From NCBI GenBank assembly GCA_030432695.1, contig JAUILN010000020.1, forward strand, positions 124,001 to 188,000: a stretch of 64,000 bases of DNA. Reading direction: 5' to 3'. This DNA is from a bacterium. Its GTDB lineage: Bacteria > Planctomycetota > UBA1135 > UBA2386. The notes beneath the pieces were generated by a model. That model did not search any database, had not been told where the DNA came from, and worked only from the letters and a program-made list of their open reading frames with translations. The position numbers and the translations under genes are program-made. Position 1 is the first letter of the stretch. Each line of letters starts with the position of its first letter. Of this stretch, positions 55,846 through 57,823 are shown piece by piece.

Positions 55846-56141
55846 CCCGGACCGAAGTCCTCCCCTGGCTCGATCAGCCCGCATTTTGTTCCGGCGCCTA
55901 CGGCGGACGGCGGAAGTTGTGCTGGCAAGTCGTGAGCTTCTGGGCCACGCCGACTTGCGACAGCTCGTTGGTTCGCTGGCGCGTGTCGATCAGGGCCTGC
56001 CCGAACATTCTCTCCAAATCCAGAAGAATCGGGACGCGATGTTCGTCGTAGCAGCCACTGAAGGAGGGAGAGTGGTGGGCGCAAGCTCGCTACGGGAGAT
56101 GGGAGTTCAGTGACGAGAGACGAGAGAGAGAGAGGGATGTG

Positions 56142-56177
56142 ACGGCTCGCGGCTTCGGCCGCGAGCCGTTGCTTTTT
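56142..56177 (+). terminator. Rho-independent terminator
   Basis: ACGGCTCGCGGC-TTCG-GCCGCGAGCCGT: perfect 12-bp stem with UUCG tetraloop, followed by TGCTTTTTG. Confidence 0.85.
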
Positions 56178-56258
56178 GTACGGGGCGAGTTGCGCCGGAT
56201 GTGGCCAGGAAGCGAGCCTTGGCCTGGCCTTCCCATGTGTCGATTCCGCAGCCCGCCG

Positions 56259-56555
56259 ATGAACCCCGACCGACTCCTGCGCACTCTCGATCGATCGGCA
56301 CCACCGTCGGGGCTGTCCGCGGTGCACGACGCACTATGGCATGACGCACGAGGTGACTGGGACGCAGCCCACGAGATCGTCCAGTCGATGTCGTCCCGAT
56401 CTGCCGCGCATGTGCACGCCTACCTGCATCGAAAGGAGGGCGATCTGCCGAACGCGGACTACTGGTATCGCCGCGCCGGGGTCGAGCGGCCCGACGTGAC
56501 GCTGGAGCAGGAATGGCGCGAGCTGGTGGTCGAACTCGTGGACCCTGGCTCTTAG
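56259..56555 (+). CDS. Conserved small protein of unknown function (98 aa)
   Basis: MNPDRLLRTLDRSAPPSGLSAVHDALWHDARGDWDAAHEIVQSMSSRSAAHVHAYLHRKEGDLPNADYWYRRAG resembles a conserved bacterial family; stop codon TAG lies in the left end of repeat copy 1. Confidence 0.8.
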   Translation: MNPDRLLRTLDRSAPPSGLSAVHDALWHDARGDWDAAHEIVQSMSSRSAAHVHAYLHRKEGDLPNADYWYRRAGVERPDVTLEQEWRELVVELVDPGS

Positions 56556-56718
56556 TGGTCCGTCGCAGAAGTTCGCGTCGGAAGTCCGCCGCCCCAGGAC
56601 GCCGAATCGCCGCGTTGTGCGGCCTCGACGAATCCACCGATTCGCCTGCGGCCGCACGCCTTGCGCTCGGCGCCCCGGAACGGCGACTTTTCCGGCGAAC
56701 TTCTGCGACGGACCACTA
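56553..56718. mobile_element. 166-bp palindromic MITE-like element, copy 1 (perfect 24-bp terminal inverted repeats)
   Basis: Left end TAGTGGTCCGTCGCAGAAGTTCGC (56553-56576); right end GCGAACTTCTGCGACGGACCACTA (56695-56718), exact reverse complements; TA at both ends; no transposase. Confidence 0.88.
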
Positions 56719-57606
56719 GCGATCGTTGACGGACGCTCGCAGCAGTCGGTGCGCCAACACGCGCCAACAGCCCGCCGCCTGCGCGAGCTGTTCCGGGCTA
56801 GCCTTCTCCGGTTCCCGCGGTCCGATCGACTCGCCGCTGATGTGACGAAGCAGCAGCAACGCGGCCTGGCCCACGTTCTTGGGGCGATGGGCGCTGATCG
56901 TCATGTCCTGCGCATCGCCGCGGCGCAGCAGCAACTCCTGGTTTCCCAGGGCACGCTCGTCGTCGAGGTAGCGGACCAGTGCCGGCAAGGCGCCGAGGGG
57001 AAGTCTCTGGAGTTCGCTCCAGGCATCTTGCGCGGCGCGGCCATGGCGCTGCATGAGTTGATCGATCAGCTCGGCGAGCCTGGCGTCGTGTGGCAGGTTC
57101 TCAGGCAGCGGGGTCGTGCGGCTGTTCTGGTGTTCTTCGACCAGGTGCTTCAACGCCGCGGTCTGCTCCGTCGGGAAGATCGACGTGCCGCGGAATCGGT
57201 CGGTCAGGAAGTTCCGATCGCCGATCCGCTGCAGCAGGAACAGGCGCTCTCGGCCAAGGTGGCTCCGCATGTCGTTCGCCGTCGGGTGGAACCCATGGGG
57301 GTGGGTCTCGGGTGCGGCGAAGAAAGTCATCCGCTCGGGTAGCGGCTCGTCCGGGTCGACCACCGAGAGCGACTCGTGCACGTCGAGCTTCAGTCGGAGG
57401 TAGCTGCCGCCTCGCTCCGCGGCGCGCACGAGATCGAGAGGGTCGTTGGCGCGGACCGTGGCGCGTAGTACGCACGACGTGCCAAGCAACGTGCGGTCGA
57501 TGTCGGTCCAGACCTCTGCCGGAATGGTCGGAGTCGCGACCTGTGCCGCACCCGGTGCGACCAGTGCACCGAGGATGACGAGTTCGCGAAGCGGGAGGCC
57601 GGGCAT
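56716..57606 (-). CDS. Hypothetical secreted protein located between the two element copies
   Basis: MPGLPLRELVILGALVAPGAAQVATPTIPAEVWTD signal peptide; 296 aa ending LLRASVNDR; stop TAG lies in the right end of repeat copy 1. Confidence 0.75.
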   Translation of the reverse strand: MPGLPLRELVILGALVAPGAAQVATPTIPAEVWTDIDRTLLGTSCVLRATVRANDPLDLVRAAERGGSYLRLKLDVHESLSVVDPDEPLPERMTFFAAPETHPHGFHPTANDMRSHLGRERLFLLQRIGDRNFLTDRFRGTSIFPTEQTAALKHLVEEHQNSRTTPLPENLPHDARLAELIDQLMQRHGRAAQDAWSELQRLPLGALPALVRYLDDERALGNQELLLRRGDAQDMTISAHRPKNVGQAALLLLRHISGESIGPREPEKASPEQLAQAAGCWRVLAHRLLRASVNDR

Positions 57607-57657
57607 CGGGGGAGGGGCCGGTGAAGGCCAGGAGAATGGCGAGGAGACGAGGGGGAC

Positions 57658-57823
57658 TAGTGGTTCGTCGCAGAAGTTCGCGTCGGAAGTCCGCCGCCCC
57701 AGTACGCCGAATCGCTGCGTTGTGCGGCCTCGACGAATCCACCGATTCGCCTACGGCCGCACGCCTTGCGCTCGGCGCCCTGGAACGACGACTTTTCCGG
57801 CGAACTCCTGCGACACATCACTA
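57658..57823. mobile_element. 166-bp palindromic MITE-like element, copy 2 (diverged terminal inverted repeats)
   Basis: Left TAGTGGTTCGTCGCAGAAGTTCGC (57658-57681); right GCGAACTCCTGCGACACATCACTA (57800-57823), 4 mismatches of 24 between arms; same length and orientation as copy 1, ~10 substitutions by hand count; CTAG at both outer edges. Confidence 0.87.

Follow-up and report, generated by a model that had tools for sequence, protein, structure and literature searches.

The window analysed here, a 64,000-bp stretch of a Planctomycetota genome (contig C33:124001-188000; host genome of 10.03 Mb in 37 contigs), contains two closely similar palindromic copies of an element with TA ends, and raises the question of what this element is, what moves it and what its interior represents. 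The overall best explanation, and a probable one, is a MITE that is moved by IS630 and carries a conserved fold-back core. The features on which this reading is based are listed below with their window coordinates; the minus strand is that of the core (the putative RNA-sense strand), and R2 is the second of two covariance models, built from Planctomycetota only and giving rough E-values.

56553-56718, minus: MITE copy 1, 166 bp, R2 score of 74.1 bits
56553-56576, plus: left terminal inverted repeat of copy 1, identical at 22/24 positions to the left end of an IS630 of the same genome
56601-56672, minus: two-loop core region of copy 1, matched by R2, with the CAAGG/CAACG loop, the CGCAG/CGAGG loop and the apical hairpin
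56623-56650, minus: conserved core of copy 1, CGCAGGCGAATCGGTGGATTCGTCGAGG
56695-56718, minus: right terminal inverted repeat of copy 1
56716-56719, no strand: CTAG at the right edge of copy 1, in which CTA is the stop codon (minus reading) of the open reading frame (ORF) 56716-57606
57658-57823, minus: MITE copy 2, 166 bp, CTAG at either edge, with private substitutions
57706-57777, minus: region of copy 2 matched by R2, with a score of 72.1 bits
57728-57755, minus: conserved core of copy 2, CGTAGGCGAATCGGTGGATTCGTCGAGG, with one change relative to copy 1

Copies and insertion sites in the window and the host genome

A first-pass annotation made from the sequence of the window had described two copies of exactly 166 bp in the same orientation, differing at about 10 positions, with perfect 24-bp inverted ends on copy 1 and CTAG at both edges of copy 2. 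All of this was confirmed, the two copies being 94% identical. Copy 1 is bordered by TTAG on its left (56552-56555) and by CTAG on its right (56716-56719). Three sites resembling the 18-mer end occurred in the window against 0.03 expected, and the strand of copy 1 folded at -110.7 kcal/mol (z = -10 relative to shuffles). Both ORFs flanking copy 1 end in a TAG taken from its termini, in convergent orientation (56139-56555, plus; 56716-57606, minus).

The view that the element exists in two copies proved wrong. The search for further copies in the host genome, which had been proposed as a check, was carried out at the DNA level and placed the element of the window (hereafter family 1) at 10 dispersed places, on both strands, with 94-100% identity and unrelated flanks, one of the 10 copies being truncated. 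Dispersed copies, inverted ends and unrelated flanks uphold its classification as a MITE. The norm for family 1 is two mismatched bases between the ends (CC versus the complement of GT), and copy 1, with its perfect ends, is an atypical member. Private changes are indeed present in copy 2, which the first-pass annotation had taken as the diverged copy, older or decaying.

Family 1 copies were mostly flanked by CTAG or TTAG, with CTCG on either side of one copy (L006), and nearly all were inserted at the TA within CTAG; the TA ends of the element are themselves palindromic. CTAG is scarce in the window, with 9 occurrences where base composition would predict about 176, which makes the edges of sibling elements some of the few available targets; several family 1 copies abut another core-bearing element, with one CTAG in common. 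According to a simple gene caller, 49 of the 50 elements of the host genome are intergenic. About 8 of the 50 coincide exactly with a stop codon, which may reflect the TAG stop often contained in the rare CTAG target.

A same-genome IS630 with matching ends

That no transposase accompanies the element was correct for the window but not for the genome. A scan for terminal inverted repeats (TIRs) located a complete IS630 at C28:129001-130219, with 1219 bp between its outer inverted ends and CTAG on either side. Its ends (TAGTGGTCTGTCGCACAAGTTCGC / TAGTGGTCTGTCGCAAGAGTTCGC) are identical to those of the MITE at 22/24 and 21/24 positions, respectively. The transposase is encoded by an open frame of 374 aa matching NF033545 (286 bits) as well as DDE_3, and the catalytic residues D179, D262 and E298 are present. 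This gene, lying between matching ends that are set in CTAG, supports both the relation to IS630 and the TA/CTAG insertion that had been suggested from the edges of the two copies. Contigs C5 and C15 terminate inside a further IS left end (matched at 23/24 positions), and the C28 transposase was the sole one of its kind found in the host assembly.

As judged from its ends, family 1 is a non-autonomous IS630-type MITE. Because the ends match, mobilisation in trans can be argued as it has been for RUP and IS630-Spn1 (PMC2229807), and the C28 transposase probably moves the family 1 copies in this way: it would cut them at their ends and paste them at the TA within CTAG, duplicating the TA. RUP, from Streptococcus pneumoniae, likewise has ends matching an IS630 of its own genome (IS630-Spn1) and inserts at TA (PMC2229807), but is 107 bp long; among the bacterial MITEs of a 2007 review, RUP alone had a matched partner, also an IS630 (PMC2229807). 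REP / RAYT repeats are likewise repeated palindromes and are also reported from Planctomycetes (PMC3733652), but they measure 20-40 bp and are tagged with GTAG or CGTC at a single end, compared with 166 bp and TA/CTAG at both ends here.

The core and its spread on different ends

The core comprises about 28 nt, consisting of CGCAG, a hairpin and CGAGG. That it is shared with other elements, as well as the existence of a second family and the strand asymmetry reported in the next section, lay beyond the view of the first-pass annotation. Family 2 of the host genome possesses the same core between other ends (TAGGAGGC.GGGTCACGGGA) and has more than 40 copies, with lengths of 166, 181-183 and 194-201 bp (e.g. 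L018, L047, L013 and L044), the longer forms having gained about 15-17 nt in one arm or the other; a partner transposase was not found for it. The motif CGAATCGGTGGATTCG had 51 exact occurrences in the host genome, and all of those inspected were within core-bearing elements. Family 1 copies were also seen next to or abutting older elements that contain the core but have a different apical stem (L004, at about 372 on the minus strand; L008, at about 1745 on the minus strand), which points to a third and a fourth family in this genome.

Outside the host genome, a scan with CGCAGNCGAATNNNNNNATTCGNCGAGG over one genome per species gave 111 or more stretches, and the matches listed were almost all named Planctomycetota. 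A covariance model of the core detected it in 44 of the 399 genomes that were sampled from this phylum. The core-bearing elements were mostly 164-167 bp long, with the core in a central position and at least 8 kinds of ends. The complete genome of Planctomycetes bacterium Pan216 (G480) contained 155 and 142 matches to one end type on its two strands, and apparently bears a large MITE load. Core-less derivatives with the same ends were also found, including a 68-bp form present in two identical copies at separate loci (L322 and L323, genome G113) and several of 48-49 bp in Pan216 (L353, L355 and L359). They suggest that the ends alone suffice for movement, recurrent identical deletion being another possible origin. 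Among viral contigs, one match was due to chance and two were real elements, while phages gave no match to the element. The core motif was also present in a 1034-bp contig binned as an archaeon (L197; JANQNF010000065.1), possibly by mis-binning.

An exact TIR scan of public genomes gave no match, and in most of the other element-rich genomes tested, some of them draft assemblies, no IS630 or DDE_3 gene was detected, or none with matching ends. For the TAGCAGCCCGTTGAAGAAGT ends, no partner was present among the TIR sites of genomes G139 and G304 or among the matches listed for G113. The Pan216 ends had no partner among the matches listed or the loci examined, and no IS-sized end pair was seen among 30 Pan216 loci. 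By sequence comparison, then, most other end types had no partner in the genomes tested. In genome G050, seven copies of an IS630 had about 64% identity with the C28 IS630 and TAGTGGGGTGAGTCAAAGCTTC as their ends (L138, L147, L150-L154).

Beyond Planctomycetota, the 166-bp query weakly matched a Ralstonia megaplasmid (E 0.5) at a locus that folds into a similar hairpin. Used as a BLAST query in turn, this locus matched Cupriavidus metallidurans at 14 places (E 2e-12), as well as Eleftheria and Paraburkholderia, and the Cupriavidus repeat then matched Neisseria gonorrhoeae (E 1e-3 and 5e-5) at a Correia element whose ends read TATAGTG(A/G)ATTAA, found at 40 or more places in that record. With R2, whose E-values are rough, Ralstonia scored 35.3 bits (E 1.4e-7), Eleftheria 32.7 bits (E 7.8e-7) and the gonococcal Correia element a weak 19.4 bits (E 0.006), the next match, noise, being at 13.3. 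A match in Methylorubrum did not hold up.

Correia elements (CREE / NEMIS) resemble the element of the window in being short fold-back MITEs with TA-type ends containing TAGTGG, and in their core layout, CAAGGCG-N5-CCGCAG-hairpin-C(A/G)AGG-N5-CAACGC. The Correia link thus relies on this matching layout together with the BLAST chain and the weak direct R2 match. The two differ in that Correia ends are A+T-rich (TATAGTGGATTAA...) whereas those of the window element are TAGTGGTCCGTCGCAGAAGTTCGC, with TAGTGG alone common to both, and in that the short Correia form is 106 bp against about 165 bp here. The repeats of Burkholderiales (Ralstonia, Cupriavidus metallidurans, Eleftheria and Paraburkholderia) share the two-loop core and the dispersed copies, but are about 113-117 bp long, with AGAGGCGCTATCAAAATGA... 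ends and an additional bulge in the left arm; no annotation of them was present in the records shown and no published name was found. Individual loci showing such dispersed fold-back repeats of 113-117 bp with the same core include L365 and L370, on the megaplasmid of Cupriavidus metallidurans CH34, and L363, L366 and L368.

In its interior the element works like a Correia-type hairpin module; its ends are not those of a Correia element. The comparisons suggest that the core occurs in Planctomycetota, in Burkholderiales and, on weaker evidence, in the Correia elements of Neisseria, in combination with many different ends. The proposal of an undescribed family stood in so far as no named match was found in Rfam or in the literature, but not for the architecture of the core, which is that of Correia and Burkholderiales repeats. 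In Rfam, the window gave no match at the gathering threshold, and related loci appeared in permissive scans only below family thresholds. In 2009, the mobilising mechanism of Correia elements was stated as not determined (PMC2649163). An IS630 transposase is a candidate mover of Correia elements: in the host genome a Correia-type core is enclosed by ends like those of an intact IS630, so that this can be tested directly.

Covariation and strand asymmetry

When 20 elements whose apical stems differ were compared, 97% of the cells were paired and 31 cells had changed on both sides, compared with 8.7 in shuffles (0/500), while the two-loop subtype had double changes at 11 of 15 pairs (0/500 shuffles); part of these rows had been picked by a structure model, and public rows by a fixed pattern, which biases the figures toward pairing. 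The variant stems CGTGTT/GACACG, CTGTAGC/GCTACAG and CATATC/GATATG were recovered through their conserved flanks. The unpaired letters of the CGCAG/CGAGG internal loop were nearly invariant, and one subtype has a second internal loop, CAAGG/CAACG. Judged by this pattern of substitutions, the interior is a conserved fold-back module and not junk.

The left and right arms were also aligned on the core strand, with GU and AC mismatches scored alike. Isolated mismatches amounted to 160 GU and 21 AC over 42 clusters with less than 70% identity, clusters that are not fully independent as the families are related by descent. The GU excess was significant in a sign-flip test at 60, 70 and 80% clustering, and with a stricter gap penalty it was seen in the outer 24 nt as well as in the inner arms. 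The outer 24 nt had been considered as an internal control under a milder penalty, which gave little bias there, and were dropped for this purpose once the stricter count showed bias. Strand mutation bias was also considered as a cause, and was set aside since the rare changes of family 2 comprised 13 C>T and 19 G>A on the same strand. In the three Pan216 copies that were counted first, the asymmetry was weak; five proteobacterial copies had 1 GU and 5 AC isolated mismatches, with no GU excess, and the excess was absent in one Correia copy examined, a further difference from the planctomycete elements.

These patterns fit selection for the folding of one strand, as RNA or single-stranded DNA, RNA being the likelier. 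As the stems co-vary and the wobble lies on one strand, the selected product would most likely be a folded transcript of the core strand. By analogy with Correia transcripts, which reviews report to be cut by RNase III (PMC10969869, PMC2229807), such a transcript might be a double-stranded RNA that RNase III or another protein of this sort takes as its substrate, for and against which we see even chances. Two results count against a strand-specific RNA: in the host genome, the orientation of the elements relative to neighbouring genes was random, and no sigma-70-like promoter was found near the window copies. A broader and more tentative reading, which we would rate below even, takes the core as a one-strand structured-RNA module that has spread across phyla on the ends of several transposons, with Correia elements as its Neisseria branch and IS630 as their missing mobiliser. 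Conserved loops, co-varying stems and one-strand wobble within a MITE would mean that a supposedly inert mini-transposon bears a selected nucleic-acid structure, in at least two phyla.

An ordinary IS630 MITE, in which the core is common by descent and horizontal spread, the interior is free of selection and the arms are kept paired by template switching, is rather unlikely to account for the whole. It agrees with the random orientation to genes and with the apparent mobility of the core-less derivatives, both those of 68 bp (two identical, at different loci) and those of 48-49 bp. Arm-to-arm correction would, however, erase mismatched loops, whereas the loops are fixed and the paired letters compensate each other; nor does this explanation predict strand-specific wobble.

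We regard as improbable the idea that the folded core strand, as single-stranded DNA or RNA, is itself the substrate of transposition, with a protein reading the apex and measuring a fixed length to the TA ends; the outer stems could then vary freely, and true terminal repeats would be absent. The near-constant length, the centred core, the freely varying ends, the extension of the wobble asymmetry into the outer 24 nt and the failure to find an IS630 in most genomes tested would all suit such a mechanism. It is opposed by the ends of family 1, in which 21-22 of 24 positions agree with an actual IS630, and by the recurrence of core-less derivatives of 68 bp and 48-49 bp.

Two further readings are already contradicted by the data, and we consider them next to impossible. 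A conserved short reading frame (R-R-R-I-x-x-F-x-E in one frame) as the explanation of the core draws on one Pan216 family that is open across the element in that frame, but 50 stops occurred in the core frame of 42 family representatives, only 15 of which were fully open, and variation among Pan216 copies had no three-base periodicity; the stops and the lack of codon periodicity thus indicate an element without coding capacity. A vertically inherited, non-mobile RNA gene, which had been named in advance as the refuting alternative, would agree with the conserved structure and loop sequence, but is contradicted by near-identical dispersed copies with unrelated flanks and by nested or abutting insertions at CTAG.
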